Shown here piece after piece: positions 29,567 to 55,881 of a DNA stretch of 64,000 bases. The DNA is taken from NCBI GenBank assembly GCA_900317905.1, contig ONIN01000001.1, forward strand, positions 62,001 to 126,000. Reading direction: 5' to 3'. A model generated the notes under the pieces. It had not been told where the DNA came from, made no database searches, and worked only from the letters and a program-made list of their open reading frames with translations. The DNA comes from an uncultured Eubacteriales bacterium (lineage in GTDB: Bacteria > Bacillota > Clostridia > Oscillospirales > Oscillospiraceae). Made by a program: the position numbers and the translations under genes. Numbering within the stretch: the stretch's first letter is position 1; every line of letters begins with the position of its first letter.

Positions 29567-30229
29567 ATGAGCGGAACATTAATCGTGATTGAAGGTCTGG
29601 ATGGCAGTGGAAAGGCCACCCAGGCAAAGCTGCTGTATGCGTCTCTCCTCAGCAGGGGAAAAGAAGTGCGGACAGTGTCCTTCCCAAATTATGAAAGCGA
29701 TTCCTCAGCGCTGATCAAGATGTATCTGAGCGGTGCTTTCGGCAGCGATCCCGGAGATGTGAATGCCTATGCTGCGTCCTCCTTCTTTGCGGTGGACCGC
29801 TACGCGTCATTTAAGAAAGACTGGGGCGGTTTCTATCAGGCAGGCGGCATCCTCATCGCTGACCGCTATACCACCTCCAACGCCATCCACCAGTGCTCCA
29901 AGCTTCCGGAGGAGCAATGGGACGGTTATCTGAACTGGCTGTTTGACTTTGAATATCGGCTGCTGGGGATCCCGGCGCCGGATCTGGTGTTCTATCTGAA
30001 GGTAGAGCCGGAGGTCAGCCAGAAGCTGATGACCGGCCGCTATCATGGCGATGAGAGCAGAAAGGACATCCACGAGAGCAATCTCGCCTATTTGCAGCAG
30101 TCCCGCAGGGCGGCGGAATACTGTGCCAACCGGCTGGGCTGGAAGACCATCCTTTGCAGCCGGGAGGGCGAAATGCGCGGGATCGAGGAGATCCACGATG
30201 AGATTCTTTCCGCTGTACTGGAACGCTGA
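29567..30229 (+). CDS. Thymidylate-kinase-like nucleotide kinase
   Basis: This 220-aa protein of the Tmk family has P-loop EGLDGSGKATQ, a DRYTTSNAIHQ motif (the DRY/H box of dTMP kinases) and a C-terminal NRLGWKTI. It would phosphorylate dTMP or a related NMP. ATG 29567 gives the family-typical N-terminus MSGTLIVIEG; ATG 29549 adds six residues and neither has a strong ribosome site. It opens the glycan operon. It could be the cell's normal Tmk or a specialised kinase; sequence alone does not decide. It is longer than usual after the LID region. Confidence 0.8.
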   Translation: MSGTLIVIEGLDGSGKATQAKLLYASLLSRGKEVRTVSFPNYESDSSALIKMYLSGAFGSDPGDVNAYAASSFFAVDRYASFKKDWGGFYQAGGILIADRYTTSNAIHQCSKLPEEQWDGYLNWLFDFEYRLLGIPAPDLVFYLKVEPEVSQKLMTGRYHGDESRKDIHESNLAYLQQSRRAAEYCANRLGWKTILCSREGEMRGIEEIHDEILSAVLER

Positions 30230-30347
30230 AAATTTCCTGCATTCGGTTTTCGGATGCGGATGAAATAAAAATGACTTTCTGTGCAGAAACGGAAACCTGC
30301 ACCATTCGGAGCACTTGCTCAATACTTGAAGTTGGGATGTATATAAC

Positions 30348-31658
30348 ATGAACAGTATTTTAACGGATCCGAGATTTTCCGGGATTACTCCCTTTCAGTC
30401 TAAAATCTGGCTTGCCACGCCGACCATGCACGGCGATGAACAGAAGTGGGTCGATGATGCCATCCGCACCAATTGGGTGAGCACGGTTGGCGCGAACATC
30501 AACGAGGTTGAGGCACAGCTGGCAGCCTTCATCGGATGCAAATATGCTGTTGCGCTCTCCGCAGGAACCGCGGCGCTGCACCTTGCCACGAAACTGGCGG
30601 GGGAGAAGCTCTACGGCCAGGCGAGACCCAATGAGGGCACCCTGCGCGGACACCGGGTCTTCTGCTCTGACTGCACCTTTGACGCCAGCGTCAACCCGGT
30701 GGCCTATGAAGACGGTGAGGCTGTTTTCATCGATACGGAGTATGACAGCTGGAACATGAGCCCCGAGGCGCTGGAAAAGGCTTTCGAGCTCTACCCGGAG
30801 GTCAGGCTCATCGTTGTGGCGCATCTTTACGGCACCCCCGCAAAGATGGAGGAGATCAAGTCCATCGCCGAAAAGCACGGAGCCCTGATCATCGAAGACG
30901 CAGCCGAAAGTCTCGGCGCCAAATACAAGCTGAACGGCCGGTGGGTGGAGACCGGCGCCCTTGGCGATTATAACTGCATCTCCTTCAATGGCAACAAGAT
31001 CATCACCGGCAGCGCCGGCGGCATGTTCCTGACCGACAGTCTGGAGGATGCCAATAAGGTGAGAAAGTGGTCCACCCAGAGCCGTGAGGACGCCCCCTGG
31101 TACCAGCATGAAGAAGTCGGCTATAACTACCGCATGAGCAACATCATCGCCGGCGTGGTCAGAGGGCAGACTCCCTATCTGGACGCGCATATCGCCCAGA
31201 AGCGGGCCGTTTGGGAGCGCTACGCGGAGGGGCTGAAGGATCTCCCGGTGCAGATGAATCCCTGGGATCCGGACAAGTGCCTCCCGAACTTCTGGCTCAG
31301 CTGCATCCTCATCGATGAGACTGCCATGGCGCCCATGGTGCGCGGTGAGCGGGATTATCTGTACAAAACGGAGCCCGGCAAGAGCTCTCCCCAGGAGATC
31401 CTGGACGCCCTGGCCGCCTTCAACGCCGAGGGTCGTCCGATCTGGAAGCCCATGCATTTGCAGCCGATCTACCGCACGAATGCATTCGTGACTGCGGAAG
31501 GAAACGGCCGCGGCGAAACCAACGCATATATCTCCGGCAAGATCGTGGATGTGGGCGCGGACATCTTCAGACGGGGTCTGTGTCTGCCCAGCGACAATAA
31601 AATGACACCGGAGCAGCAGGATGTCGTGATCGATATCATCCACAGATGCTTCCGATGA
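30348..31658 (+). CDS. DegT/DnrJ/EryC1/StrS aminotransferase (PglE-like)
   Basis: This 436-aa PLP enzyme most likely aminates a nucleotide-linked 4-keto sugar. Family marks are ALSAGTAALHLATKL (phosphate-binding loop), VVAHLYGTPAKM, IEDAAESLGAKY and the PLP lysine K217 in SFNGNKIITGSAGG. The C-terminal part KPMHLQPIY is also typical. The 4,6-dehydratase that would make its substrate is not in the window. The ribosome site before ATG 30348 is weak. The product would be a 4-amino-4,6-dideoxyhexose for the glycan. Confidence 0.9.
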   Translation: MNSILTDPRFSGITPFQSKIWLATPTMHGDEQKWVDDAIRTNWVSTVGANINEVEAQLAAFIGCKYAVALSAGTAALHLATKLAGEKLYGQARPNEGTLRGHRVFCSDCTFDASVNPVAYEDGEAVFIDTEYDSWNMSPEALEKAFELYPEVRLIVVAHLYGTPAKMEEIKSIAEKHGALIIEDAAESLGAKYKLNGRWVETGALGDYNCISFNGNKIITGSAGGMFLTDSLEDANKVRKWSTQSREDAPWYQHEEVGYNYRMSNIIAGVVRGQTPYLDAHIAQKRAVWERYAEGLKDLPVQMNPWDPDKCLPNFWLSCILIDETAMAPMVRGERDYLYKTEPGKSSPQEILDALAAFNAEGRPIWKPMHLQPIYRTNAFVTAEGNGRGETNAYISGKIVDVGADIFRRGLCLPSDNKMTPEQQDVVIDIIHRCFR

Positions 31659-31778
31659 TCTGATGCGGTCTGTATTTGAAATTGCTTTGCGGCTCAAATT
31701 TGTTTGAAATCAGAAAAGTGATTATTCGCTGCGGAATGATCATGCTTGCGTGTTTTTCGTATTGAAAGGACTGGTTTG

Positions 31779-33248
31779 ATGGACAGATTGACTGTTACTG
31801 GGATCATCAAGAAGCGAGCAGCTGAATCCCCTGAAAAAACGGCGATCATCGTCGGCAATACAAGTCTGAATTACGGACAACTGTATCAGGCGATCCGTTC
31901 TGCAGCTTCTTATTTTGAAGAAATCGGAATCCATACCGGCAGTCATGTTGTCTCTGTCGCGGTCCCAAGCCTCCATTATGTCATTTGCACGTATGCGGTT
32001 TTGGGTCTGGGAGCGGTACATATCCCGGTCGAGAACCGAATCCCCGTGGAACGGCTGACTGAGATCGCGGCTGCTGTTGACGCAGATTTTATAATCGCAG
32101 AGGATAAACCGGATTCGGACTGTCATTGGATTTCTCCGAGTAAGATTGATTATGACAGACCGATTACGCCCTGGGAGCCGGTTGGAGTGTCGGATGCCTG
32201 CTCTGAAATCGTATTCACTACGGGGACTACTGGAAAATCCAAAGGCGTGATGCTTTCGTCGCACTGTCTGGAAGTATATCTTGAAGCGATGAACCCATCC
32301 TTCCGTCTGGATGAATCCAGTGTGTTTCTTGTTACGACACCTCTGAATCATGTTGGCGGAATGCACCGTCTGCATCAGTGCCTGGCAGCCGGAAGTACGA
32401 TCATTTTGATGGATGGCGTGCGTGATCTGCGGGCATTTTTCCATGCAATTCATGAGCATGGTGTCACCCACACGTATTTGCCGCCTGCTTCGGTTAAGCT
32501 GTTGATCACGCTGGCGAAGAAGGAAGTTGCCAACTTGAACGGGCAGCTGAAGTTTATCTATACGGCTTCTGCGCCGTTCCCGGTGAAAGACATCGAGGTA
32601 TTGATGGGGCTGCTGCCAGACACGCATCTTCATCAGGGTTACGGCAGCAGCGAAACCGGAAGCATTTGCAACTGCTGCTATAATGCCCCCGGTGAGAGTG
32701 TTGATTGTCTTGGAAAGCCCTATCCGTGCGTGGAAGTGATTCTCAGCGACAGTGACGGGAAGATCATCACGGAGCCTTATGAAGCGGGATATATTCGTTC
32801 TCGAAGCGGAATGAATATGATCGGCTATTATAAAGAGCCCGAACTGACTTCCCAGGTGCTGAAAGACGGATTTGTCTATAGCAGCGATCTTCTCTTCTTT
32901 GATGAAAAAGGCAGTCTGCACTTTGCCGGTCGTGGAGATGATGTGATTAACGTCCGCGGATTCAAGGTTTCTCCGACCGAGGTAGAGAATGCTGCCCTGA
33001 AACATCCATCCGTTTCAGACTGTGTATGCATTCCTTACGAAGACCAACAGCTGGGACGCGTTGTCAAGCTGCTTGTGGTGCTGAAGGAAGGGTGCGCACT
33101 TGAGATCGAAGAGCTTGCTTCCTTTCTTTCGAAATCACTGGAACCATATAAAGTTCCCAAGTTCATCGAACAGATTGACGAGGTGCTCAGGACCGGAAAC
33201 GGCAAAATTGATCGAAAAGCTATCATAAAGCAGCATTCCAACCTGTAA
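31779..33248 (+). CDS. AMP-forming acid ligase (ANL superfamily)
   Basis: This 489-aa adenylating enzyme activates a carboxylic acid as acyl-AMP and passes it to CoA or a carrier protein. Core motifs are present: FTTGTTGKSKGVM (A3 P-loop), GYGSSETGSI (A5), SSDLLFFDE, GRGDDVINVRGFKVSPTEVE (A8 hinge) and the A10 lysine in RTGNGKIDRK. ATG 31779 follows AAAGGA by 8 nt; an in-frame TTG at 31746 is rejected. The acid is unknown. An acyl carrier protein at 45.9 kb in the same strand block is a plausible acceptor, as in DltA/DltC-type systems. Codon use is more AT-rich than in core genes. Confidence 0.88.
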   Translation: MDRLTVTGIIKKRAAESPEKTAIIVGNTSLNYGQLYQAIRSAASYFEEIGIHTGSHVVSVAVPSLHYVICTYAVLGLGAVHIPVENRIPVERLTEIAAAVDADFIIAEDKPDSDCHWISPSKIDYDRPITPWEPVGVSDACSEIVFTTGTTGKSKGVMLSSHCLEVYLEAMNPSFRLDESSVFLVTTPLNHVGGMHRLHQCLAAGSTIILMDGVRDLRAFFHAIHEHGVTHTYLPPASVKLLITLAKKEVANLNGQLKFIYTASAPFPVKDIEVLMGLLPDTHLHQGYGSSETGSICNCCYNAPGESVDCLGKPYPCVEVILSDSDGKIITEPYEAGYIRSRSGMNMIGYYKEPELTSQVLKDGFVYSSDLLFFDEKGSLHFAGRGDDVINVRGFKVSPTEVENAALKHPSVSDCVCIPYEDQQLGRVVKLLVVLKEGCALEIEELASFLSKSLEPYKVPKFIEQIDEVLRTGNGKIDRKAIIKQHSNL

Positions 33249-33320
33249 TCGTCGGCGCAGTCGGCTGATGGTCATGGAAGATGTCATACCAATGCGTAAT
33301 CATTTGAGGTGTGGAGAACA

Positions 33321-34331
33321 GTGAAACGATCTGGTCAAGCGAGTCATACCGGCGATGTCCCTTTTGTGAGCGTGATCGTGCCGGTTTATAAGGTTGAGAA
33401 ATATATCAGGAAATGCATCGACTCCATCCTAGCGCAAACCTATCAGAATTATGAGTTGATTCTGGTTGACGACGGCTCTCCGGATGACTGCGGCAAAATC
33501 TGCGATGAATATGCGGAAAAGTACAGTTTCATTTCCGTGATTCATCAGCAGAACCAGGGATTGTCGGGAGCGCGCAATCATGGAGTTTTGGAATCCAGGG
33601 GCGATTATATTACATTTATTGATTCGGATGACTTTGTAACAGAAGACTATTTGGATTACTTGGTCGGACTGGTTCAGTCGTTTCACGCGGATATCTCTGC
33701 CGGAAGTCATGTTTATCAATATGAGAATAAAGAGATCAAACAGCCCAGAGAAGAGACAGAAAGAGGCTTTTTGGAACCTGCGGATGCTCTGACGCGCATG
33801 AATTATGCCAAAGGCGTGGGCCTGACTGCCTGGGCGAAGCTTTATAAAAGGGAATTGGTAGAAGCGAATCCCTATCCGATCGGGAAGTATTATGAGGATC
33901 TGGCGACAACCTATAAGATCGTAGGATCATCGACCGGGGTCGCATACGGAAATAAGCAGATTTATTATTGGCAGCAGAGACCCGACAGTATTATGCACAG
34001 CCGCTTTGACGAACGGCAGCTTGCCGGATTAGAGGCGACCAAAAACCAGCTTCAATACATTGAGAAGCATTACCCCGCCGCTGTCCCCGCGGCCAAGTAC
34101 CGCTGCGCGGCAAAGGCGGTTGAGCTCACGGACATTCTGTTTACATCTGGCGGAGACCGTTCCGTTTTTCGAAAGCTGAAAGCTTTCATGAACGAGTATG
34201 CCGCCGAGGTATTAAAGGACGACCATGCCAAGGCTTCGATCAAGATCCGAATCCATGCGATGAGACTGGGCTATTATCCGGCAAAGATTGCTTTTGCGAT
34301 TCATAGGTTTTTGAAGAAAAAGAGAATTTGA
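33321..34331 (+). CDS. Family 2 glycosyltransferase
   Basis: This 336-aa GT-A fold enzyme starts VSVIVPVYKVEKYI and has LVDDGSPDDCG and the metal-binding FIDSDDF. It should transfer a sugar from a nucleotide donor to the lipid-linked glycan on the inner face of the membrane. GTG 33321 is chosen because GGAGA precedes it; an in-frame GTG at 33309 overlaps its own ribosome site. There is no long membrane segment, so it is a peripheral protein. Donor and linkage cannot be told. Confidence 0.9.
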   Translation: MKRSGQASHTGDVPFVSVIVPVYKVEKYIRKCIDSILAQTYQNYELILVDDGSPDDCGKICDEYAEKYSFISVIHQQNQGLSGARNHGVLESRGDYITFIDSDDFVTEDYLDYLVGLVQSFHADISAGSHVYQYENKEIKQPREETERGFLEPADALTRMNYAKGVGLTAWAKLYKRELVEANPYPIGKYYEDLATTYKIVGSSTGVAYGNKQIYYWQQRPDSIMHSRFDERQLAGLEATKNQLQYIEKHYPAAVPAAKYRCAAKAVELTDILFTSGGDRSVFRKLKAFMNEYAAEVLKDDHAKASIKIRIHAMRLGYYPAKIAFAIHRFLKKKRI

Positions 34332-34348
34332 AAAGTGAGGACTCTTTG

Positions 34349-35383
34349 ATGTCAGAAAACGGCTATCCGATTGATTTTGTTATCACATGGGTGGATGGAA
34401 ACGACCCTGCCTGGCAGGCTGAAAAAGCAAAATATCAGAAGGCTACCGGTGACGCCCGCGCAAATCGATATCGGGAATGGGACACGCTCCGGTATTGGTT
34501 CAGAGGTGTGGAAAACTATGCACCTTGGGTGAATCGCATCTTTTTTGTTACCTGGGGCCATCTTCCCGCCTGGCTGAATACGGAGCATCCGAAGCTCAGG
34601 ATTGTCAATCATAAGGATTATATCCCGGAAGAGTATCTTCCGACCTTCTCCAGCCGGCCGATTGACATGAACTTCCACCGCATCGAAGAATTATCTGAAC
34701 ATTTTGTCTACTTTAATGATGACATGTTCCTGATTCGACCGGTGGAGAGGTCTGATTTTTTCGTCAATGGACTCCCGTGCGATTCGGCGGTTCAGGATGT
34801 CATAGCGCCGAAAGGGAAAGGCACAAACGGAGAAGCGCTGATTGGGGATGCGCAGTATACAGCGATTTTTTACGATACTGCAGTAATCAACAGGAACTTT
34901 GATAAAAGGGAAGTGCTGAAGGCCAATCATAGCAAATGGTTCACCATGAAGTATAAAAAGAATGTCTTTAAGAACTATTTGCTGAATGAATGGAATTATT
35001 TTACCGGTTTCAAGATGATCCATATGCCATATTCTTATCTTAAGGATACCTACAGAGAAGTGTGGGAGAGGGAGGCAACGGTTCTTTCACAGGCGTGTAA
35101 AAACAAATTCAGAACGACAACCGATGTCAATCACTTTGTTTTTTCCTATTGGCAGCTTGCGAAAGGGACGTTTGAGCCTCGAGGTTTGTCCGAGGGCAGT
35201 TTGATGTCTCTGGCGAATGATGACGATAGAAACCAGAGAATCTACAGCACCATTCGGAACCAAACCAAGAAATTCATCTGTGTAAATGATACCTTCACGG
35301 GAGATAACTACGAGGAAGTCAAGCAGAATCTGGTGGCGAGCTTCGAAGCAATCCTTCCGGAGAAATCTACTTTTGAAGTATGA
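34349..35383 (+). CDS. Stealth-family sugar-phosphate transferase
   Basis: This 344-aa protein shows the Stealth conserved regions: CR1 PIDFVITWVDGNDPAW, CR2 from RYREWDTLRYWFRGVE to HFVYFNDDMFL, and a C-terminal CR3/CR4-like part around VNHFVFSYWQLA. Stealth proteins (capsule polymerases and GlcNAc-1-phosphotransferase relatives) join sugars through phosphodiesters. ATG 34349 has GAGG 8 nt upstream. Its presence predicts a hexose-phosphate link in the polymer or in a side group. Confidence 0.92.
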   Translation: MSENGYPIDFVITWVDGNDPAWQAEKAKYQKATGDARANRYREWDTLRYWFRGVENYAPWVNRIFFVTWGHLPAWLNTEHPKLRIVNHKDYIPEEYLPTFSSRPIDMNFHRIEELSEHFVYFNDDMFLIRPVERSDFFVNGLPCDSAVQDVIAPKGKGTNGEALIGDAQYTAIFYDTAVINRNFDKREVLKANHSKWFTMKYKKNVFKNYLLNEWNYFTGFKMIHMPYSYLKDTYREVWEREATVLSQACKNKFRTTTDVNHFVFSYWQLAKGTFEPRGLSEGSLMSLANDDDRNQRIYSTIRNQTKKFICVNDTFTGDNYEEVKQNLVASFEAILPEKSTFEV

Positions 35384-35429
35384 AGCATGCTAGAATAAGC
35401 TGCCTGAAAATGAAATTGGAAAACTAACT

Positions 35430-36785
35430 ATGGAATACGATGTGATAATTGCTGCCTGTGTATTTTTGACACTGGCGGTTTTCGGAAATCTATTGCTTCG
35501 ATGCATTGTGAATCCGATTACGGTGTTTTGCACTGTATGGGGCGTGATTCTCCTGGCATACAGCTTTCACGCCTATGGACTGTATTACGCCTCTTCTTTA
35601 AGTCTGTCCCTGATTGTTGTCGGAGTATCACTGTTCTTCTTCGGCGCCGTTGTGGCGATGATTCTGTTCAGGAGGAATTCGAATTCTCATGGCAGGATTA
35701 CCGTGATAGACGAGAATGCCGCCGGGATGAATTATACGGTCATGCTGCTGTTGAATATCATCTCATTTGCCTTCTTGATTGGATTTGGGCTGTCTGCGAT
35801 CAGGGATCTTCTTTCAGGAAGCGATTTTTATTATATTCACAAAATGTATAATGATGAGGAGGGCATGATCGCCGGGTCCAAAACCTACAGAAATATGATC
35901 ACCTGGTTTGTCTGGCCCCTCCTGGACGCTTCTCTGGCTGCAATGGCGGCGTCGATTCTCTGCGACAAAGAGAATACCAGCAAGAAAAAGAAGCTGTTTA
36001 TTATTCTCACTTTGCTCAATCTTGCCTTGTTTATTATTATTTCGGGAAAGCGACTGCGTTTGTTGAACGTTGTTATGTTTTTCATCGCGGTTTTCTATCT
36101 GCAGGGAAGGCGAGTAAAACTGAAAGGGAGGACGAAGCTGGCGATCGCTGTCGGCCTGGTCGCAACGCTGTGGGCGTTTAACTACATTTCTGTAGGAAGA
36201 GGAACGCAGTCTATTGTTCGGTCCCTGTATGTTTATCTTGTGGGCTGTGTGCCGCATCTCTCATCAAAGCTGAGCGGGACCGTGAATCCCAAAGGCCTTA
36301 CGAGTGTGTATGGCTTTTTCCAGCCGATCCTGATCATTGTGAATTCCGTATTTCACTCTTCTACCTTGAACAGTATACGCAATTCCATGTCTGATCTTGC
36401 TGCATATACACAGGTGCGAACGACGATCGGCCCCGGAATGACGTTCAACGCATTCCTTACACCGTTTTATTTCTTTTATCTGGACGGCGGGGTCATCGGA
36501 AATGTCGTGCTTAGCTTCCTGTTTGGCTTTTTTTCCATGGGCGTCTATTATTATCATATAAAAAAGCGCAGCTATCAATCCCTCTTGCTGTATCTTCTCG
36601 TATTCTTTAGTTTGTATATGTCGATGGTACGGATTCAGTTCTTCCAGATGCGCTATGTACTTTCCTTTGCCTATACGTTCTTGTTCTTTATAAAGCCAAA
36701 AGTCAAAATCGTCTTTCAGAAAGGACGTTTTCAGGATCACGTGAACGCATTTAACGGCGAGCACAGGTTTGATATGCGTCGGTAG
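35430..36785 (+). CDS. Wzy-like oligosaccharide repeat-unit polymerase
   Basis: This 451-aa integral membrane protein has about ten to twelve hydrophobic helices and a larger outside loop after the middle (~270-345). That layout, and its place next to a flippase, fit a Wzy/O-antigen polymerase; this family has little sequence conservation. It would join lipid-linked repeat units on the outer face of the membrane. AT-rich codon use stands out against the core genes. The ribosome site before ATG 35430 is weak. Confidence 0.75.
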   Translation: MEYDVIIAACVFLTLAVFGNLLLRCIVNPITVFCTVWGVILLAYSFHAYGLYYASSLSLSLIVVGVSLFFFGAVVAMILFRRNSNSHGRITVIDENAAGMNYTVMLLLNIISFAFLIGFGLSAIRDLLSGSDFYYIHKMYNDEEGMIAGSKTYRNMITWFVWPLLDASLAAMAASILCDKENTSKKKKLFIILTLLNLALFIIISGKRLRLLNVVMFFIAVFYLQGRRVKLKGRTKLAIAVGLVATLWAFNYISVGRGTQSIVRSLYVYLVGCVPHLSSKLSGTVNPKGLTSVYGFFQPILIIVNSVFHSSTLNSIRNSMSDLAAYTQVRTTIGPGMTFNAFLTPFYFFYLDGGVIGNVVLSFLFGFFSMGVYYYHIKKRSYQSLLLYLLVFFSLYMSMVRIQFFQMRYVLSFAYTFLFFIKPKVKIVFQKGRFQDHVNAFNGEHRFDMRR

Positions 36786-36830
36786 GGAACCGACCGCATT
36801 TTACGAGTTCATCGGAGGATTATCAGAAAT

Positions 36831-38300
36831 ATGGCAAAAAAACCAGGCATAAAAAAGAATCTGTTTTATAGCGTAAGCTATCAGATTCTCACAATCATTC
36901 TGCCGCTGATAACGGCTCCGTATGTTACTCGCGTATTGGGCGCAAAGAGCCTTGGCATTTATTCAAAATCTCAAGCGTTAGCCCATTATTTTCTCCTTTT
37001 TGCAATGCTTGGTGTGAATAATTACGGCAACAGATCCATCGCCCGTGTGAGAGATGATCGGAGCGAATTGAGCAGGACGTTTTGCGAGATCTATGCCTTT
37101 CAGTTTATCACAGCAATCATTACCTCGAGCCTGTACTGGGTTTATTGTATCGGCTTCTCCACGCAAAACCGCATGATTTATATGATGCAGACGTTTTACG
37201 TTATGTCCGGTCTTCTGGATGTGAACTGGTGCTGTTTTGGCCTGGAGAAATTCAGGCTCACGACCACACGAAGTATGGTGGTACGATTTCTCACAGCAGT
37301 TGCGATCTTTGTGCTGGTGAAAGGCAAGGATGACCTCTGGCTCTATACGTTTATCATTTCGTTCAGTCATATCGCATCCACGCTGGTGGTTTGGCCCTTT
37401 ATTAAAAAGCACATTGATTTTGTGAAGCCCACATGGGCAGGGATCAAGCGGCATATCAAACCCAATCTGCTGCTGTTCTGGCCGGTCGTTGCAGTGAGTC
37501 TTTACAATATCATGGACAAGCTGATGCTTGGCTGGTTCAGCGAAGATGAAGAGGTCGCATTCTATACTTACGCAGAAAGAATCGTTACCATACCAACAAC
37601 GCTGATCCTTGCGCTGGATAATGTGATCATGCCAAGAATGTCCAATCTCTATGCGACCAAAGGCAACAACGACAAAAGCGTGAGATTCCTGATGGATAAT
37701 GTCATGCTGTTTGCCATGTTCATGGCGGGAGCCATGGGCTTTGGTTTGGCGGGAGTTGCGGACGTCTTTGCCCCCTGGTTTTATGGAAGCGCGTTTACCA
37801 GGTGCGGATTCTTTATTATCCTGCTGAGCCCGGTTATTGTCATCAAAGCATGGGCGGGCGCATTGAGAACACAGTTCATTATTCCCACCGGAAGAGATAA
37901 GATCTATGTGTTTTCTCTTACGACCGGAGCGGTTGTAAACCTGATTTTGAATGCGCTGCTGATCCCGAAAATCAACGGCGTCGGTGCGATTATCGGCACG
38001 ATCGCTGCCGAGTTCGCCGTTTGCTTCATTCAGTTCTTTATGTGCCGCAAGGACATCGACATAAAAAACTATATGACGAATGGCTTCAGCTTCTGTGTGA
38101 TAGGGCTCATCATGTTCCTGGCGGTAGAAGCACTGTCGCATATCAGCAGCCATGCTCTGGTCACGATGGCTGTCCAGGTGGTTTGCGGTGCAATCATTTA
38201 TTGTGTACTGGGCAGCTTCTATATGGTTAAGATTCGCAAAAACCCGGTACTTGTGAATGAAGGCTTGAAGATGCTCAGGATCAAATACAGATTTCAGTAA
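36831..38300 (+). CDS. Wzx-type oligosaccharide flippase
   Basis: This 489-aa MATE/MVF-like protein has about fourteen membrane helices. The N-terminus (GIKKNLFYSVSYQILTIILPLITAPYVTRVLGAKSLG, split here by spacing only in the family alignment) is characteristic of polysaccharide exporters of the RfbX/Wzx group. It would move undecaprenyl-linked repeat units across the membrane. GGAGG precedes ATG 36831. It pairs with the Wzy-like gene 45 nt upstream. Confidence 0.9.
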   Translation: MAKKPGIKKNLFYSVSYQILTIILPLITAPYVTRVLGAKSLGIYSKSQALAHYFLLFAMLGVNNYGNRSIARVRDDRSELSRTFCEIYAFQFITAIITSSLYWVYCIGFSTQNRMIYMMQTFYVMSGLLDVNWCCFGLEKFRLTTTRSMVVRFLTAVAIFVLVKGKDDLWLYTFIISFSHIASTLVVWPFIKKHIDFVKPTWAGIKRHIKPNLLLFWPVVAVSLYNIMDKLMLGWFSEDEEVAFYTYAERIVTIPTTLILALDNVIMPRMSNLYATKGNNDKSVRFLMDNVMLFAMFMAGAMGFGLAGVADVFAPWFYGSAFTRCGFFIILLSPVIVIKAWAGALRTQFIIPTGRDKIYVFSLTTGAVVNLILNALLIPKINGVGAIIGTIAAEFAVCFIQFFMCRKDIDIKNYMTNGFSFCVIGLIMFLAVEALSHISSHALVTMAVQVVCGAIIYCVLGSFYMVKIRKNPVLVNEGLKMLRIKYRFQ

Positions 38301-38332
38301 GCAAGAAAAATCGGAATGCTTTGGAGGACGCT

Positions 38333-39370: not shown

Positions 39371-39412
39371 CGCTGAGCAGCTTTTGAGATTTGATATTGC
39401 GGAGGGTTCATT

Positions 39413-44467: not shown

Positions 44468-44488
44468 GCAAAAGGGAGTCAATCAGTG

Positions 44489-48924: not shown

Positions 48925-50259
48925 GTGAATCAATCGATCGATTTTTTGAAAGCCATCGACGGTGTTTGGAATCATCCGGTTCCGAAGACCGTGATGGTCC
49001 GCGCCCGTCGAAGCCTGCTGGATTATCTGGCTGTGACCTGCGCCGGGGCGCGATTCCAGAGGGAAAAGCTGGATCGCTATTTTGCCTTTGCGGAGCCGGA
49101 GCCGGGCGCCTTCCGGGCCATCGGAACCGGGAAGGATCTGGTGCTGAAGGAAGCGGTCTTTCTGAACGGCCTGAACGGTCACGCATTGGACTTTGACGAT
49201 GGGACCAATTCGGGCATCATCCATCTGGGAAGCCCGATCTTCAGTCTTCTGATCCCGCTTTCTCAGCGCTATGGGATCGGGATCGATGCGATGCTGAAAG
49301 CCGCTATTGTGGGTTATGAGGCTTCTTATACCATGGCGGTATCCATTCAGCCGGGCCACAAGGCCATGGGCTACCACGCTACCGGCACCTGCGGAACTTT
49401 GGGAGCAACGCTTGCGGCAGCCTATCTGCTGGGCTTCTCGGAAGAGGAGCGGTTCCAGGCCTTTGCTTCCGCCTGTGTGGCAGCCAGCGGTATGCTGAAG
49501 GTGCTGGATGACGGCAGTGAACTGAAGCCCTACAATGTGGCAAAAACTTCGCTCCTGGCCCTTACGGCACTGCAGCTGGCCAAGAGCGGCTTCAAAGGTC
49601 ATGCAGACCCGCTGGGCGGCCGCGGCTTTTTGAAAATGATGACCGGAAGGGAAGATGTGGAACTCAAGCCGGTGCTGTTAGACGGCACCTACGCCATCAT
49701 GAAGTCCTACACGAAACCCTATGCCTCCTGCCGATATACCCACCCTGCGGTGGAGGCTGCGATCCATCTGCGCAGCAAGGTGAAGCCGGAGGATGTGGAA
49801 TCGATTTCGATCCGGACCTATGATCTCGCCGTCAGCGGCCATGACCATACGGAGATCCCCGGCAGCTACAGCGCGAAAATGAGCATCCCCTACGCCACGG
49901 CGGCGGGGCTGCTCTACGGAAAAGCGGGCCTGCAGGAGTTTTCCGAGGAAGCAGTGCAGGGCAACGCGATCCTGGAACTGACAAAAAAGATCCACGTTTC
50001 CGCCGATGCGGAGTTGAGCGCTGTGTTTCCTGGTGTCCAGGCGGCAGTGGTCACGATCCATACAAAGGACGGAGTTTTCACAGACCGTGTGGATTTCCCG
50101 AAGGGAGAGCCGGAAAACCCGCTGGATGACAGGGAATTCCGGGAACGCTATGACGGCCTGATGGAATACGCCGGGGTCTCGTCCGACGCAAGCGACGATG
50201 TGTTTCAAACGGTCTATCAAACGGATGCCCCGGTCGACGTCCTGGTACGGAAACTATAA
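48925..50259 (+). CDS. MmgE/PrpD family protein 2
   Basis: This 444-aa paralogue of the protein at 40.7 kb has NGHALDFDDGTN (active-site Asp region), YHATGTCGTLGATLAAAYLLG, YASCRYTHPAVEAA and PKGEPENPL. Family members dehydrate, decarboxylate or epimerise tri- and dicarboxylates. The GTG start at 48925 follows AGGAGG. It heads a run of acid-metabolism genes. The usual prpB, prpC and acn partners of the methylcitrate cycle are missing, so propionate breakdown is unlikely. Confidence 0.87.
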   Translation: MNQSIDFLKAIDGVWNHPVPKTVMVRARRSLLDYLAVTCAGARFQREKLDRYFAFAEPEPGAFRAIGTGKDLVLKEAVFLNGLNGHALDFDDGTNSGIIHLGSPIFSLLIPLSQRYGIGIDAMLKAAIVGYEASYTMAVSIQPGHKAMGYHATGTCGTLGATLAAAYLLGFSEEERFQAFASACVAASGMLKVLDDGSELKPYNVAKTSLLALTALQLAKSGFKGHADPLGGRGFLKMMTGREDVELKPVLLDGTYAIMKSYTKPYASCRYTHPAVEAAIHLRSKVKPEDVESISIRTYDLAVSGHDHTEIPGSYSAKMSIPYATAAGLLYGKAGLQEFSEEAVQGNAILELTKKIHVSADAELSAVFPGVQAAVVTIHTKDGVFTDRVDFPKGEPENPLDDREFRERYDGLMEYAGVSSDASDDVFQTVYQTDAPVDVLVRKL

Positions 50260-50273
50260 TGAGGAGCGATGGC

Positions 50274-51254
50274 ATGAACAACGTAAAACTGATTCTCGGG
50301 ACAATGACCTTCGGGGAATCTGTGTTTTCCCCGGATGTAGAGTCTTTTATCAACGCATTTCTGGATGCGGGTTATGACGAACTGGACACCGCCTATGTTT
50401 ATAACGAGGGCAATTGCGAGCGGCTGCTGGGTGAGGTGCTGCCGAATCTGGACCGCCCCTTCAAGATCGCCGGTAAGGTGAACCCCCGCATCACCGGTAA
50501 GCTGGACGCCGAAGCAGCCTACATGCAGGTCAACGAGAGCCTGGAGCGGATGCATCTGGAATGCGCGGACATCATGTTCCTTCATTTCCCGGATCCCGCC
50601 ACACCCGTGATTTCTGTTCTCGAGGCCATGGCGGATCTCCACGATCAGGGCAAATTCAAAGAGCTGGGCATTTCCAACTTCCCGGCGTGGATGGTCACCG
50701 ACGTGTGGCACATCTGCGACAAGCACGGCTGGGTGAAGCCCACGGTCTTTGAGGGCGTTTACAATCCACTGACCCGGCGGGCAGAGGCGGAGCTGAACGA
50801 CTGCCTGAACAACTTCGGCATGCGTTTCTACGCCTACAACCCCATGTGCGGCGGCCTTCTGACGGGCAAGTACGGCTCTTACACCGACGCGCCCACTGAC
50901 GGACGGTTTACCCATCGGCCCAACTATCAGGGACGCTACTGGAAGAAGAGTTTCTTCGACGCGGTGGATCTCATCAAGGCGGCGGCGGAAAAGCACGGCA
51001 TCACCAGCATTGAGGCCACCTATCGCTGGCTGGCCTATCATTCCATGCTGAACGGTGACCGGGGCGACGCGATCCTCATCGGCGCCTCCAAGCTGCATCA
51101 CCTTAAGCAGAACATGCAGACCATCCAGGCCGGCCCGCTGCCGGCGGATGTGGTTGAGGCCTTCGAGCAGGCCTGGACCATCACCAAGGGCGACAGCCCG
51201 GAGTATTTCACGCTCTACAAAGGCAAGGGCTCGGTTGGGGGCGAGAAGAAGTAA
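50274..51254 (+). CDS. Aldo/keto reductase (AKR7-like)
   Basis: This 326-aa NADPH-dependent TIM-barrel reductase has the catalytic tetrad visible as ELDTAYVYNEG (Asp, Tyr), AGKVNP (Lys) and MFLHFPDP (His). The C-terminal IEATYRWLAYHS and GDAILIGAS shape the cofactor site, as in aflatoxin-aldehyde/succinic-semialdehyde reductases. ATG 50274 follows GAGGAG; an in-frame ATG at 50259 overlaps the prior stop. In this run it may reduce an aldehyde made by the TPP decarboxylase that follows. Confidence 0.9.
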   Translation: MNNVKLILGTMTFGESVFSPDVESFINAFLDAGYDELDTAYVYNEGNCERLLGEVLPNLDRPFKIAGKVNPRITGKLDAEAAYMQVNESLERMHLECADIMFLHFPDPATPVISVLEAMADLHDQGKFKELGISNFPAWMVTDVWHICDKHGWVKPTVFEGVYNPLTRRAEAELNDCLNNFGMRFYAYNPMCGGLLTGKYGSYTDAPTDGRFTHRPNYQGRYWKKSFFDAVDLIKAAAEKHGITSIEATYRWLAYHSMLNGDRGDAILIGASKLHHLKQNMQTIQAGPLPADVVEAFEQAWTITKGDSPEYFTLYKGKGSVGGEKK

Positions 51255-52385
51255 ATGCTGGACCAGAAACGAGTATTTGAAACGCTGCGCAAAAACGGCG
51301 TGACCTATTTTACCGGTGTTCCGGACTCTTACCTGAACGGGTTTTGCAACTACGCGCTGGCAAACTGCGGCGACCGGAACGTGATCGCTGCTAATGAGGG
51401 CAACGCTGTGGGCATCGCGGCGGGACATTACTTTGCCACGAGAGAGATCCCGCTGGTCTATATGCAGAACAGCGGCATGGGCAACACCATCAACCCGCTG
51501 GCAAGTCTGGCTGACCGGGATGTTTACGCCGTCCCGATGCTGCTGCTGATCGGCTGGCGCGGCCAGGGCAACACGGAGCCCAACCATCCCCAGCACAAGC
51601 TCCAGGGGGAGATCACCCCGGGTCTGCTGGAAGTGATGCACATCCCCTATACCATTTTGGAGGATGATGATCGGAAATTCAGCGAGACGGTGGAGCAGGC
51701 AGTATCCTACTGCAAAGAGACCCGCGGCGTCTACGCGCTCATTGCCCCCAAGGGCGTCATGGCGGATCCCGACAAGCCCAACAACGTCGATGGCGTCTAT
51801 CCCATGAGCAGGGAAGAGGCCATCGAGGTGATCCTTGATCATATGCCTGGGGACACCGTTTACAGCGCCACCACCGGCCGAGCCACCAGAGAGCTGTTCT
51901 TCCTCAGGGAGAAGCGGGGCGAGACGAAGGCCCATGACTTCCTGAACGTGGGCTCCATGGGGCACGCTTCTTCGGTGGCACTGGGCATCGCACTCTCCAG
52001 ACCGGAGCGGCATGTTGTGGCACTGGACGGTGACTCTGCCGCCATGATGCACATGGGCGCCATGACCATGGTCAGCAAGGTGCAGGCGCCGAACTTCCTC
52101 CACGTGGTTTTGAACAACGGCGCCCATGAATCCGTAGGCGGCCAGCCCTCGGCGGGCCATCTTGTGGACTTCACCAAAGCGGCGGAGGCCTGCGGCTACG
52201 CGACCGTCGGTCACGCGGTTACCACGGAAGAAGAACTGATCGATGCCATAACGCAGTTGAAGGACTGCGGCAAGGCGGCATTCATCGACTGCCGGATCCA
52301 CAAGGGCCTGACCCGGAAGCTGCCGCCGATCATCTTCGATCACAGAGCGGCCATTGACGAACTGATCGACGATCTGAACGGATAA
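51255..52385 (+). CDS. Phosphonopyruvate-decarboxylase-like TPP enzyme
   Basis: This 376-aa protein joins the pyrimidine (N) and pyrophosphate (C) TPP domains in the order of AepY/Ppd and sulfopyruvate decarboxylase. Visible are FTGVPDSYLNGF, NEGNAVGIAAGHY (TPP Glu) and GDSAAMMHMGAM leading to VLNNGAHESVGGQPS (TPP-Mg site, GDS in place of GDG). Ppd turns 3-phosphonopyruvate into phosphonoacetaldehyde. No PEP mutase is in the window, so the true 2-oxo acid may differ, with sulfopyruvate or another 3-substituted pyruvate possible. It starts directly after the reductase stop. Confidence 0.85.
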   Translation: MLDQKRVFETLRKNGVTYFTGVPDSYLNGFCNYALANCGDRNVIAANEGNAVGIAAGHYFATREIPLVYMQNSGMGNTINPLASLADRDVYAVPMLLLIGWRGQGNTEPNHPQHKLQGEITPGLLEVMHIPYTILEDDDRKFSETVEQAVSYCKETRGVYALIAPKGVMADPDKPNNVDGVYPMSREEAIEVILDHMPGDTVYSATTGRATRELFFLREKRGETKAHDFLNVGSMGHASSVALGIALSRPERHVVALDGDSAAMMHMGAMTMVSKVQAPNFLHVVLNNGAHESVGGQPSAGHLVDFTKAAEACGYATVGHAVTTEEELIDAITQLKDCGKAAFIDCRIHKGLTRKLPPIIFDHRAAIDELIDDLNG

Positions 52386-52421
52386 TACATCGTCCGGCAC
52401 AGCCGGAGAAAGGATTTGAAC

Positions 52422-53324
52422 ATGAACAGCATGGAGCAAACCAGAGCATTTTTGAAATCTGTTGGCCTCCCCGGTGGGGACGCTTATGATCTGCCTACTT
52501 CTGAGAAACGTTTCAAAGACGGCGGTCAGTTCCGCTTTGAAGTCCCCGGCATTCAGGGACCCAAGGTCATGCGTGCGCTGCTGGAGGCCATGGACTCCTA
52601 CGGCCTGTATCTGCACCGTGTGACCCAGACCCAGGGCATCATGCGTCTGACGGACCAGGAGATCGGCAAGATGGTGGAACTGGCCCACGAGTGGAAGACG
52701 GATCTGATCCTCGCCATCGGCCCCCGCGCCACCACGGACACCTCCGCCTCCGTCCACACGGAAGAGGGCGTCCGCATGGGCTACCGTCTCCGCGGCCAGG
52801 AGCAGATCGTCCGCGCCATCGAGGATGTGAAGCGCGCCGCCCGTCTGGGCGCCAGAGGGTTTCTGGTCTATGACGAGGGCTGCCTCTGGATCCTGAACGA
52901 GATGCGCAAGGCCGGCGAGATCCCGGCAGACTGCCACTTCAAGGTTTCTGCCCACGCGGGTCACGGCAATCCCTGCTCCGCCAAGCTTTTGGAGACCATC
53001 GGCGCCGACTCCATCAACCCGGTGCGCGATATCCAGCTCCAGATGCTGGCTGCCATGCGTCAGGCGGTGGATTGCCCCATCGACATCCACACGGAAAACC
53101 CGAAATCCACCGGCGGCTTCATCCGTCACTATGAGGTGCCGGAGATGATCCGCATCGCTGCCCCGATCTATCTGAAGACCGGAGGCTCCGTGGCTGCCAC
53201 CCACTCCTGGGACAGCACCGAGGACGACGCGAGAAAGCGCGCCAAGCAGTGCAGTCTGGTCAAGCGGATGATCGACGAGTATTATCCTGAGGCTGTCTGG
53301 AGCCCGAAAGGAAGTCTGATCTGA
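52422..53324 (+). CDS. Unassigned TIM-barrel-like protein (possibly U32-peptidase-like)
   Basis: This 300-aa soluble protein is not firmly recognised. Alternating beta/alpha pattern and phrases such as LILAIGPRATTDTSASV, GARGFLVYDEG, FKVSAHAGHGNPCSA, PIDIHTENPKSTGGF and PIYLKTGGSVA suggest a TIM barrel binding a phosphate or carboxylate and perhaps a metal (His/Glu in HAGHG and HTEN). A weak likeness to U32-type proteins is recalled, not shown. ATG 52422 has AAAGGA 7 nt upstream. It overlaps the start of the lyase gene by 1 nt, which ties the two functionally. Confidence 0.7.
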   Translation: MNSMEQTRAFLKSVGLPGGDAYDLPTSEKRFKDGGQFRFEVPGIQGPKVMRALLEAMDSYGLYLHRVTQTQGIMRLTDQEIGKMVELAHEWKTDLILAIGPRATTDTSASVHTEEGVRMGYRLRGQEQIVRAIEDVKRAARLGARGFLVYDEGCLWILNEMRKAGEIPADCHFKVSAHAGHGNPCSAKLLETIGADSINPVRDIQLQMLAAMRQAVDCPIDIHTENPKSTGGFIRHYEVPEMIRIAAPIYLKTGGSVAATHSWDSTEDDARKRAKQCSLVKRMIDEYYPEAVWSPKGSLI

Positions 53325-54469
53325 TGCGGCACCATATGTACAATCCGGACTTCAAGTTCGTTGTGGAGCCGGAGCATTTTGATAAATACACGGAGCGCGA
53401 GCTGCTCCAGTACTGCCTGGGCGCCACGATGTATATGCCCGGGTATAAGGATTTTACACCAAAGATCCTGGAGCATGCCATGCCGGGTCTGACCACCATG
53501 GTGCTCTGCTTCGAGGATGCCTGCCCGGAGAATCGCGTGCCCGAAGCAATGGAGAATGTCCACCATCTGCTCTCTACGGTCACTGAGGCTGTGGACAGCG
53601 GCAGACTGGATCCGGATCATGTGCCGCTGATTTTCGTCCGCATCCGGAATTTGGAGCAGTTCAAAGCCTTCGGCGAGAAGCTGACCAAGCAGGAGGTACG
53701 TTCCCTCTGCGGCGTCAACTTTCCCAAGTTCAATGCAGAGAACGGCTATGAGTATTATGCCTACCTGAAGGATCTGAACGATCGTTTCGGAGAGATTCTA
53801 TATGGTATGCCGATCATCGAGGACCCGGAGGTTGCCTATAAGGAGAGCCGGCTGCAGCAGCTGATCGGCATTAAGAAGATCCTGGACAAGTATCACGATC
53901 TGGTTTTGCAGGTGCGTGTGGGCGGCACGGATTTCAGCAGCGTGTTTGGCGTGCGCCGCGGCGTGGATTACAGCCTTTACGATATCATGACGGTCCGTGA
54001 GTGCCTCAGTGATATCATCAACATCTGCGGCCGCAACAACGACTATGTGATCTCCGGGCCGGTGTGGGAGTATTTCCGTGCTCCCAAAGAGCTGATGTTT
54101 GAGGAACTGCCCCACCACGGGATCGAAGATTACCTGATGCGTCGTCAGCCTCTGGTGAACAACGAGATCGACGGTCTGCTGCGGGAACTGATCCTCGACA
54201 AGGCCAACGGATTTGTGGGCAGAACGGTGATTCATCCCACCCACGTCAAGTTCGTCAACGCGCTGATGGCGGTGACCAAAGAGGAGTATGACGACGCCTG
54301 CCAGATCCTCGGCACCAACGGCGGCGTGGTCAAGGGCTCCGGCGGGAACAAGATGAACGAGATCCGGCCCCACACCAACTGGGCGAAGAAGATTTACAAT
54401 CGCGCCCGTGCCTTCGGCGTGATCAAAAACGAGAGCGGCTATGTGAAGCTCTTTGCCGTAAATGAGTAA
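53324..54469 (+). CDS. HpcH/HpaI (CitE-like) C-C bond lyase
   Basis: This 381-aa TIM-barrel protein of the malyl/citramalyl lyase superfamily has LGATMYMPGY near residue 35, MVLCFEDACPEN (acidic metal ligands), LIFVRIRN (substrate Arg) and a late GRTVIHPTHV segment, the IHP motif typical of CitE-like lyases. The opening LGATMYMPG resembles C-C lyases found with tellurite-resistance (ter) biosynthetic modules. It would cleave or form a C-C bond in a hydroxy-acid. It is coupled to the preceding gene (TGATG overlap). Confidence 0.82.
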   Translation: MRHHMYNPDFKFVVEPEHFDKYTERELLQYCLGATMYMPGYKDFTPKILEHAMPGLTTMVLCFEDACPENRVPEAMENVHHLLSTVTEAVDSGRLDPDHVPLIFVRIRNLEQFKAFGEKLTKQEVRSLCGVNFPKFNAENGYEYYAYLKDLNDRFGEILYGMPIIEDPEVAYKESRLQQLIGIKKILDKYHDLVLQVRVGGTDFSSVFGVRRGVDYSLYDIMTVRECLSDIINICGRNNDYVISGPVWEYFRAPKELMFEELPHHGIEDYLMRRQPLVNNEIDGLLRELILDKANGFVGRTVIHPTHVKFVNALMAVTKEEYDDACQILGTNGGVVKGSGGNKMNEIRPHTNWAKKIYNRARAFGVIKNESGYVKLFAVNE

Positions 54470-54477: not shown

Positions 54478-54509
54478 TTGACTGCCTGTTCCTTCGAGCA
54501 GGCAGTCAA
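54478..54509 (+). other. Intercistronic hairpin
   Basis: An 11-bp perfect stem (ttgactgcctg / caggcagtcaa) with a 10-nt loop lies in the 61-nt gap between the lyase and the dehydratase beta gene. No T run follows, so it is more likely an mRNA processing or stability element than a terminator. Confidence 0.55.
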
Positions 54510-54530
54510 ATCGAATGAAGAGGGTTTGAA

Positions 54531-55040
54531 ATGATCGAATTGAAAACACCGATTTCCGAGGAAGCGGCAGCGGCGCTGCAGGTGGGGGACACCGTTGAGA
54601 TCAGCGGATACATCCTCTGCGGCCGGGACGCCGTGCTTCCGAAGGTGCTGCACATGATCGAGGAGGGCACCGTGGGCGACCTGGGCGTGGATCTGCACGG
54701 TCAGGTGATCTTCCACACGGCCGTCAGTCCTGCCGGCGTCGGCCCCACCAGCTCCAACAAGCTGGAGATCGAGAGCAGCATCGCGCCGCTGTCCAAGGCG
54801 GGTATCAAGCTGCATCTGGGAAAAGGGGAGCTGCACAAAGAGACCATTGAGGCGCTGGATCGATACAACGCGGTTTATGCGGTGATCCCGCCGGTGACGG
54901 CGCTGCTGGAGGCGAAAACCTCCGAGCGGAAGGTACTGGCCTTCCCGGAGCTTGGCATGGAGGCGCTGCATCTGATCAAGGTGGACCGCTACCCCGCGAT
55001 CATCGGCGCGGCCCATGGGAGGAGCATTTATGAAAAATGA
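54531..55040 (+). CDS. Fe-S fumarase/tartrate dehydratase, beta (C-terminal) subunit
   Basis: This 169-aa protein matches the C-terminal domain of class I fumarases and TtdB: LQVGDTVEISGYILCGRDAVLPKV (in two motifs), AVSPAGVGPTSSNKLE and LGKGELHKET. With the alpha subunit it would add or remove water on a C4 dicarboxylate such as fumarate, malate or tartrate. It precedes the alpha gene and overlaps it by 11 nt; the alpha-first order is more usual. The length is typical for a separate beta subunit. Confidence 0.9.
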   Translation: MIELKTPISEEAAAALQVGDTVEISGYILCGRDAVLPKVLHMIEEGTVGDLGVDLHGQVIFHTAVSPAGVGPTSSNKLEIESSIAPLSKAGIKLHLGKGELHKETIEALDRYNAVYAVIPPVTALLEAKTSERKVLAFPELGMEALHLIKVDRYPAIIGAAHGRSIYEK

Positions 55041-55881
55041 CATCGTAAGTCTCGTGCGGGACACACTGGTGGAGGCGGGCTCCACCTTCCGGGCGGACAA
55101 AAAAGCGGCCTACCGTGCTGCCATCGAGAAAGAGCAGAATGATCAGGCCAAGTGGGTGCTCCAGACGGTATTGGACAATGCAGAGGCAGCGGAGCAGAAC
55201 CGCAGCCCCCTCTGTGATGACTCCGGCATCCCCCATCTGTTGCTGGAAGTCGGGCCGGATTGCGCCGTCACAGGCAGAATGCTGGACGATATCCGCGAGG
55301 GCGTCCGGCAGGGCCTCCGAAAGCTCCCGGGCCGCCCCATGGGCATCATGGGGGATGACAGCCACCGGATCGACCAGAGCGGCGGCCTGAACCCGGACAG
55401 CGCCGGTGTGGAGCCCGCGCCGATCCTTCTTCGCCGGTGCGAGGAAAATGTGATCCGCCTGCACATCCTGATGTTCGGCGGCGGCCCCGCCATCCGGGCC
55501 AAGACCTATCGTGTCTTTCACAAACACAACACGCAGGTGGTTTTGGATGAGATCGTCAGCTGGGCAAAGGAAGGCGTGGCACAGCTTGGATGCTCCCCCT
55601 GCACGCTGGCTGTTGGCGTAGGCCGGAGCCATTTTGAGGCAACTTCCATGATGCTGCAGGCGCAGGTGGATGGCCGTTATGATGTGCAGAGCGACATGGA
55701 GCAGGAGATCACCCGCAGAGTGAATGAGGCCAACATTGGCCCCCTGGGTCTAGGCGGCAGCACCTCGGTGATCGCCACCTTTATGAAGGTCGGCCCCCAG
55801 AGAGCTTCCGGCGTGCGGATCGTTTGCGTCCGACCGACCTGCTGCTTCGAGCCGAGAATCGCCACGGTAGATCTCGCATAA
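55030..55881 (+). CDS. Fe-S fumarase/tartrate dehydratase, alpha (N-terminal) subunit
   Basis: This 283-aa subunit carries the 4Fe-4S cluster ligands: Cys in SPLCDDSGIP, Cys in LGCSPCTLAVGVG and Cys in RPTCCFEPR. ATG 55030 follows GGAGG; an in-frame ATG at 55015 contains that site. Class I fumarases and L-tartrate dehydratase share this layout, so the natural substrate is open. It ends the plus-strand run; a terminator follows 9 nt after the stop. Confidence 0.92.
   Translation: MKNDIVSLVRDTLVEAGSTFRADKKAAYRAAIEKEQNDQAKWVLQTVLDNAEAAEQNRSPLCDDSGIPHLLLEVGPDCAVTGRMLDDIREGVRQGLRKLPGRPMGIMGDDSHRIDQSGGLNPDSAGVEPAPILLRRCEENVIRLHILMFGGGPAIRAKTYRVFHKHNTQVVLDEIVSWAKEGVAQLGCSPCTLAVGVGRSHFEATSMMLQAQVDGRYDVQSDMEQEITRRVNEANIGPLGLGGSTSVIATFMKVGPQRASGVRIVCVRPTCCFEPRIATVDLA

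Follow-up and report, generated by a model that had tools for sequence, protein, structure and literature searches.

A candidate surface-polymer locus of an uncultured Eubacteriales bacterium joins variable glycan genes to a recurrent cassette of putative acid-pathway enzymes

We analysed a 64,000-nucleotide stretch of DNA (the window), part of contig C25 in the 2.23 Mb, 79.6% complete genome of an uncultured Eubacteriales bacterium (G000), and found in it a single run of plus-strand genes, from 30348 to 55881, in which glycan genes are followed by a seven-gene cassette for a putative carboxylic-acid pathway. On balance we favour the reading that this is a Wzx/Wzy surface-polymer locus with a variable sugar part and a constant acid system, whose acid would be made by 1,4-dicarboxylate chemistry and joined to an amino sugar, and it is strongly supported that the two halves of the locus belong together. 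The marks of a Wzx/Wzy locus are present together: an initiating polyprenyl-phosphate phosphoglycosyltransferase (PGT; PF02397), a flippase (PF01943) and a polymerase (TIGR04370, 68.9 bits over a cut-off of 40). An earlier reading made from the letters alone (the sequence-only reading) had described about 26 kb of plus-strand genes with short gaps, which is borne out by open reading frame (ORF) calls and Pfam/NCBIfam scans, with gaps of at most 118 bp overall and a largest gap of 116 bp from 30348 on. The same calls and scans recovered every gene class that it had named, while its gene list lacked the U32-like gene at 52416-53324 and one for a lipoprotein-like protein, starting near 47083; the locus further encodes a UDP-glucose dehydrogenase and a protein of the Stealth type. 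The start that it had placed at 29567 has to be moved to 30348. We rejected the thymidylate-kinase-like gene at 29549-30229 as part of the locus and assign it to the flank, because in the congener G448 no more than about 70 bp separate this gene from the LCP (LytR-CpsA-Psr) gene, with no locus between them.

Evidence that the halves are joined comes from their recurrence in other genomes. Among GTDB genomes, one genome per species, 388 stretches encode relatives of U32L, a U32-like protein of the cassette; locus counts refer to the best 80 of these 388, most similar to the window copy, long-flank counts to 56 of the 80, and the tests for PGT, PepM and fumarase to 50 carrier genomes chosen mainly for longer flanks (46 of the 80 loci plus G000, G275, G308 and G174, with G308/L117 and G275/L058 each being the same contig). 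In 36 of the 50 carrier genomes the contig of the cassette has a PGT no more than 36 kb away, and in 33 of those 36 it is upstream; this compares with 3.6 of 50 expected from PGT density and 14 in the largest of 100,000 simulations. As a control, none of 30 strong housekeeping-type fumarase genes, from 28 of the same genomes, shares a contig with a PGT (Fisher P 1.6e-11). The sequence-only reading had proposed that acid and glycan genes form one system, which would fail if the acid module occurred mostly without glycan genes; this comparison of neighbourhoods, set beforehand, had the opposite outcome, the acid module lying mostly near glycan genes.

The genes that flank the cassette point the same way. 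In the 56 long-flank loci a glycan family was recognised in 38 and an ATP-grasp family in 32, directly upstream of MmgE in 17; the flanking families include the PF00483 nucleotidyltransferase, PF16363, DegT, NeuB, a cytidylyltransferase, flippases and a sugar-transfer-associated ATP-grasp. These flank-family counts are rough, because the home-made ORF picker misses genes (it finds 78 of the 80 U32L genes) and each family was named from a single representative; the NeuC-like and further genes in G275, the trp-like genes in G308 and the TerD-like genes in L036 and L037 were named by eye only. In 6 of the 12 variant loci with a 2-hydroxyacid dehydrogenase, the PGT stands between the acid genes themselves (L087, L089, L091, L100, L106 and L107), which adds to the evidence that the halves are joined. 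The ANL (AMP-forming acyl) ligase and the acyl-ACP thioesterase each have a match in 1 of the 80 loci and the acyl carrier protein (ACP) in 0 of 80 (E <= 1e-8, flanks of up to 10 kb). We therefore rejected these three as general parts of the system, yet they are constant between two congeners; given these counts and its presence in 32 of the 56 long loci, ATP-grasp is the better general candidate for activation.

A sister locus in the congener G452, at the same site as in the window, is further evidence for joined halves, since it combines retained acid genes with a different glycan centre. It retains the LegC-type aminotransferase, ANL ligase, MmgE type 1 protein (MmgE1), both ATP-grasp ligases, PGT, hexapeptide protein, ACP, thioesterase, lipoprotein-like protein and cassette at 62-98% identity, with identical order within the cassette and a different order before it. 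None of the window's genes for GT2, Stealth, Wzy, Wzx, acyltransferase and UDP-glucose dehydrogenase is matched in the G452 locus at E 0.01, and no glycosyltransferase was recognised in it; it does encode a flippase-like protein with 12 helices and a polytopic, polymerase-like protein, both identified by eye from hydropathy, with no Pfam match. Judged by gene content in these two genomes, the layout is that of a polymorphic capsule-type locus with the acid system as its constant part, and the GC content (0.47 in the glycan centre, 0.59 in the cassette) agrees with an exchange of the centre. Beyond the locus, both G000 and G452 carry nucleotide-sugar dehydratase genes (family PF02719), whose products could feed the LegC-type aminotransferase.

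The cassette itself recurs as a unit. The order MmgE, aldo/keto reductase (AKR), Ppd-like decarboxylase, U32L, CitE-like C-C bond lyase (CCL), TtdB, TtdA is unbroken in 40 of the 80 related loci (34 of the 56 with long flanks), and therefore exceeds chance, and the six genes from AKR to TtdA are unbroken in 49 of 80. By tblastn with the window proteins, CCL was matched in 73 of the 80 loci, TtdB-like and TtdA-like in 70 each, Ppd-like in 63 and AKR in 62. MmgE comes in three types: type 2 (the window's MmgE2) in 43 loci, type 1 (MmgE1) in 17, alone in the cassette of 10 and together with type 2 in 7, and type 3 (36-42% identical to MmgE2) in 13, of which 12 fall in one clade. By clade analysis, the MmgE1 of the glycan half belongs with the MmgE that fills the cassette slot alone in those 10 loci, and a copy 76% identical lies within an otherwise different glycan-type locus in G275. 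All 12 loci with a D-2-hydroxyacid dehydrogenase have MmgE type 3, and there the dehydrogenase replaces AKR and Ppd in every case but L049, where both occur together; L098 and L110, two long loci, have neither. The simplest reading of this alternation would be one 2-oxo acid with two alternative fates across cassettes.

Conserved residues in the AKR and the hydro-lyase would fit active enzymes. AKR residues D43, Y48, K73 and H109 are kept in at least 97% of 59 sequences, and at least 97% of 69 TtdA sequences share C67, C193, C196, C276 and C277; these residues presumably have catalytic roles, some of the cysteines probably as ligands of the Fe-S cluster. The hydro-lyase has the alpha (PF05681) and beta (PF05683) domains and the conserved cysteines of class I fumarases and tartrate dehydratases, but it is a subfamily apart from the housekeeping-type fumarase (above 200 bits in 28 of the 50 carrier genomes) and scores far below it. 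Both MmgE/PrpD proteins of the window exceed the cut-offs of PF03972 and PF19305, and the CitE-like protein reaches 22 bits against RipC, whose cut-off is 375. The nearest plasmid relative of CCL is 48% identical and adjoins a phosphoribosyltransferase gene; CCL relatives occur on 2513 plasmid records, and the enterobacterial ones among the matches listed overlap or adjoin a StiP-family gene.

U32L is the most conserved member of the cassette. Over 78 sequences its mean amino-acid identity to the window copy is 0.92, and its fourfold-degenerate sites agree at 0.40, compared with 0.31 expected at saturation, which together indicate long divergence under strong purifying selection. The near-saturated sites led us to reject recent horizontal spread as the cause of the roughly 92% identity; an older transfer is compatible with them. 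The protein has no NCBIfam match and reaches only 13.7 bits against Pfam U32 (PF01136; cut-off 22.4), a threshold that two plasmid-borne relatives (35% and 45% identity) exceed with 25.3 and 23.0 bits, and a sequence search found no relative in the PDB. An AlphaFold2 model built from 31 sequences (mean pLDDT 78.9) alternates strands and helices as a TIM barrel does, so that we predict a TIM-barrel-type fold from their order. By title, the carriers of the 80 nearest loci are mostly rumen and gut Clostridia, with others in Spirochaetales (L071), Victivallales (L082) and Kiritimatiellae (L098), and U32L is present in 2 of 10 genomes of the host genus. On a plasmid of Enterobacter chuandaensis (L119:13928-26165) a distant relative stands in a biosynthesis-like run with an aminotransferase, an oxidoreductase and two iron-containing redox enzymes; the records of plasmid matches in Streptomyces and Nonomuraea carry no annotation.

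From the gene families we infer the substrates, reaction order, product and attachment of the acid as follows. The variable part would build and polymerise the sugar backbone; the constant part would comprise the PGT, starting the glycan, the LegC-type aminotransferase, which would make and supply an amino sugar, and a dedicated acid pathway with its ligases. The CitE-like enzyme, the U32-like TIM-barrel enzyme or both may carry out C-C chemistry, and TtdAB with MmgE (dehydratase/epimerase types) would remove or add water or epimerise 1,4-dicarboxylates, giving a substituted 2-oxo acid, which the Ppd-like enzyme would decarboxylate to an aldehyde that AKR would turn into a hydroxy acid; in variant cassettes the 2-hydroxyacid dehydrogenase would reduce the 2-oxo acid instead. 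An ATP-grasp ligase could form an amide bond between the acid and the LegC-made amino group before Wzx flips the unit, and the ANL ligase, ACP, thioesterase and hexapeptide protein may process an additional acyl group. Malate-like acids are the usual substrates of enzymes of the TtdAB and CitE types, and Ppd acts on a 2-oxo acid whose C3 bears an anionic group. As passages of one study put it, known MmgE/PrpD substrates share a four-carbon 1,4-dicarboxylate, and the MmgE/PrpD enzyme tested there was active on the free acid and inactive on the CoA ester (PMC12290011). The substrate classes of MmgE/PrpD, TtdAB, CitE and Ppd make a shared 1,4-dicarboxylate frame our best guess, and use of the acid on the polymer is likely.

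Several observations weigh against a glycan-linked acid system. Of the 14 carrier genomes outside the 36, two have a PGT farther away and 12 have none on the contig; in 7 of these 12 the locus itself includes a flippase or an ATP-grasp family (L040, L053, L057, L071, L073, L074 and L115), and GT2 genes lie about 9-13 kb from the cassette in L071, L073 and L115, among the matches listed for 17 loci. Near the cassettes of G308, G174, L041, L072 and L098 no glycan or ATP-grasp family was recognised; those of G174 and L041 are on or near short contig ends, and that of G308 stands beside trp-like genes with a GT8-like gene about 15 kb upstream (both by eye). The gene order lacks CCL in L071, L073 and L081, the system is thinly spread in the taxonomic order, with close CCL copies in just 4 of 394 genomes sampled from it, and the difference in GC content means that glycan centre and cassette hardly arrived as one block. 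Five of the 56 long loci have no recognised glycan, ATP-grasp or transporter family; in two of these (L055 and L065) a PGT stands farther out, at 13 and 22 kb. Finally, LysR, DctM or both occur in 17 of the 56, as in a catabolic operon. The enzyme classes of the cassette also occur in catabolism, and the main rival reading is that it breaks down or ferments an imported dicarboxylate and came to lie beside glycan loci by shared insertion sites; across the 80 loci, families named from one representative each add a LysR type in 14, a DctM type in 20 and a 96-aa two-helix protein in 19. We consider this rather unlikely, since 39 of the 56 long loci have neither LysR nor DctM and 11 of the 17 that do also hold glycan or ATP-grasp families, since PGT enrichment came with a clean control and the PGT stands amid the acid genes in half of the variant loci, and since the sister locus holds ligases and acid genes together.

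It is also conceivable, but in our view very unlikely, that the product of the cassette is a small molecule in free form (secreted or cofactor-like) and no glycan substituent: the distant U32L relative on the Enterobacter plasmid and the CitE-like relatives beside phosphoribosyltransferase and StiP-family genes would suit such a role, while the close cassette copies lie mostly near PGT, ATP-grasp and amino-sugar genes. Scarcely credible, to our minds, is a phosphonate tailoring locus, in which the Ppd-like enzyme would act on phosphonopyruvate and AKR would make 2-hydroxyethylphosphonate for the glycan, and we rejected it. The Ppd-like protein does exceed the NCBIfam cut-off for phosphonopyruvate decarboxylase (TIGR03297), in Segatella copri the genes for PepM, Ppd and phosphonoacetaldehyde reductase have polymerase and flippase genes as neighbours, and the majority of predicted phosphonate clusters are thought, in passages of PMC6697681, to tailor cell surfaces. 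However, PepM is above its cut-off in only 7 of the 50 carrier genomes and had no match in G000 (79.6% complete), G275, G308 or G174, and a phosphonate product leaves MmgE and TtdAB without a role. In a tree of 74 Ppd sequences, 63 cassette copies, the window's included, form one clade with support 1.0 and ten other Ppds, of which nine have PepM no farther than about 2 kb away, lie outside it; one C-terminal Arg in 10 of 10 of these is Pro in 63 of 63 cassette copies. (Nine PepM regions were fetched, of which L123, L126 and L131 gave no Ppd match.) The 74th sequence, picked into the cassette set by the ORF picker, is the PepM-linked copy of G398 (L043/L129), where PepM and a PepM-type Ppd lie about 6-10 kb from the cassette U32L and both kinds of Ppd coexist.

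If the acid is a surface substituent, as we favour, the locus would specify a hitherto undescribed chemical trait of bacterial surfaces in gut and rumen, of a type that phages and host lectins may read. Family names (phosphonopyruvate decarboxylase, fumarase, citrate lyase, U32 peptidase, 2-methylcitrate dehydratase) hide one coherent system here. More tentatively, and with considerable doubt, the cassette may be an undescribed pathway to a new glycan-building acid in gut Clostridia, spirochaetes and Victivallales/Kiritimatiellae, with U32L founding a new enzyme class; the minimal form in G452 could then chain one amino sugar through a hydroxy acid link. We found no open-access paper that combines the cassette genes or links them with glycan terms. 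The cassette offers a direct genetic handle, as it can be expressed and its product identified, and U32L is a strongly constrained orphan enzyme with testable partners.

The coordinates of the locus and of neighbouring features are collected in the table.

Table. Features of the locus, its flanks and one distant gene (window positions; percentages are amino-acid identities to the named genome or locus)
Feature	Position	Strand	Evidence and relatives
BspA-type leucine-rich-repeat protein with S-layer homology domain	2343-4613		family scan
Thymidylate-kinase-like, flank	29549-30229	+	PF02223; below NCBIfam dTMP kinase cut-offs
LegC-type DegT aminotransferase	30348-31658	+	PF01041; TIGR04181 272 bits, below 420 cut-off; 96% in G452
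ANL (AMP-forming acyl) ligase	31746-33248	+	PF00501/PF13193; 63% in G452
Variable glycan centre: GT2, Stealth phosphotransferase-like, Wzy, Wzx, acyltransferase-3, UDP-glucose dehydrogenase	33309-40636	+	Pfam/NCBIfam scans
MmgE/PrpD type 1 (MmgE1)	40699-42063	+	PF03972/PF19305; 76% in G275, 72% in G452
ATP-grasp ligase A, PylC-like N domain	42180-43151	+	PF21360, PF02655, PF15632; 84% in G452
ATP-grasp ligase B	43187-44467	+	95% in G452; relatives (19-45% identity) near many cassettes
Initiating PGT	44486-45193	+	PF02397 205 bits; 98% in G452
Hexapeptide acyltransferase	45259-45822	+	PF00132; weak NeuD/PglB/VioB-type similarity; 96% in G452
Acyl carrier protein (ACP)	45915-46148	+	PF00550 21.6 bits over 20.8 cut-off; 82% in G452
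Acyl-ACP thioesterase (TE)	46242-46994	+	PF01643/PF20791; 90% in G452, 50% in L099
Lipoprotein-like protein	47083-48873	+	start moved by eye from 46909; 88% in G452
MmgE/PrpD type 2 (MmgE2), first cassette gene	48925-50259	+	PF03972/PF19305
Aldo/keto reductase (AKR)	50259-51254	+	PF00248
Ppd-like ThDP 2-oxo-acid decarboxylase	51255-52385	+	TIGR03297 400.4 bits over 312.5 cut-off
U32-like TIM-barrel-type protein (U32L), 302 aa	52416-53324	+	PF01136 13.7 bits, below 22.4 cut-off
CitE-like C-C bond lyase/aldolase (CCL)	53324-54469	+	PF15617 378 bits
TtdB/FumA-C-type hydro-lyase beta subunit (fumC)	54531-55040	+	PF05683
TtdA/FumA-N-type Fe-S hydro-lyase alpha subunit (fumN)	55015-55881	+	PF05681
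Terminator-like hairpin, 13 pairs and T tail, past last gene	55886-55915	+	hairpin scan
Pyruvate-kinase-like, 326 aa, barrel domain only, flank	55902-56882	-	PF00224; same place in G452
LCP (LytR-CpsA-Psr) family, flank	56935-58473	-	PF03816; 92% in G452
FtsW	58507-59703	-	family scan

The LCP gene that the sequence-only reading had noted next door, as a possible means of attaching the polymer to the wall, is indeed present at 56935-58473; it lies on the opposite strand, and in G448 it is present without the locus. It may serve as wall-attachment enzyme for the polymer. In G446 the LCP and pyruvate-kinase-like genes are inverted relative to FtsW and follow other glycan-type genes, and the barrel-only pyruvate-kinase-like gene adjoins LCP both there and in G452. 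Counts of promoter and terminator matches in the window are near chance, the 13-pair hairpin at 55886 being the longest found. The lipoprotein-like protein has no Pfam match and contains, by eye, a Cys/His stretch recalling NlpC-type hydrolases. At L039:4655-6320 and similar loci a DctM-type permease and a 96-aa hydrophobic protein, possibly the permease's small subunit, precede the cassette.

Parts of the locus resemble known systems. Like the window, the phosphonate locus of Segatella copri places a Ppd-family decarboxylase and then a carbonyl reductase by polymerase and flippase genes; compared with phosphonate tailoring loci at large (PepM, Ppd, reductase or transaminase, capsule genes), the window has no PepM match and its Ppd clade is separate. 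The Ter-operon-type C-C bond lyase with ATP-grasp shares PF15617 with the CitE-like protein and PF15632 with ATP-grasp ligase A, but neither a TerD-like gene nor one for a phosphoribosyltransferase was recognised in the cassette, and identity in plasmid records is at most 48%. An itaconate/methylsuccinate degradation cluster, in the passages of PMC12290011 that describe it, likewise has MmgE/PrpD and a C-C lyase, the (S)-citramalyl-CoA lyase, yet it uses a CoA transferase, a hydratase and an acyl-CoA dehydrogenase, and the CitE-like protein of the window is far below the RipC cut-off. By analogy of gene plan, not of protein sequence, the nearest worked example that we found appears to be the O1 antigen of Vibrio cholerae. 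According to passages of PMC3441752, its perosamine is acylated by tetronate from dedicated genes; as we propose for the window, the glycan locus (wbe/rfb) has its own hydroxy-acid genes, and the acid acylates a 4-amino sugar. There, the same passages indicate, the acid is 3-deoxy-L-glycero-tetronate, different genes make it and an ABC transporter serves for export, whereas the window locus has a larger set of 1,4-dicarboxylate-type genes, Wzx/Wzy and ATP-grasp. Glycan loci with a built-in acyl pathway are a known kind; what appears to be new here is the putative pathway and the orphan enzyme at its heart.

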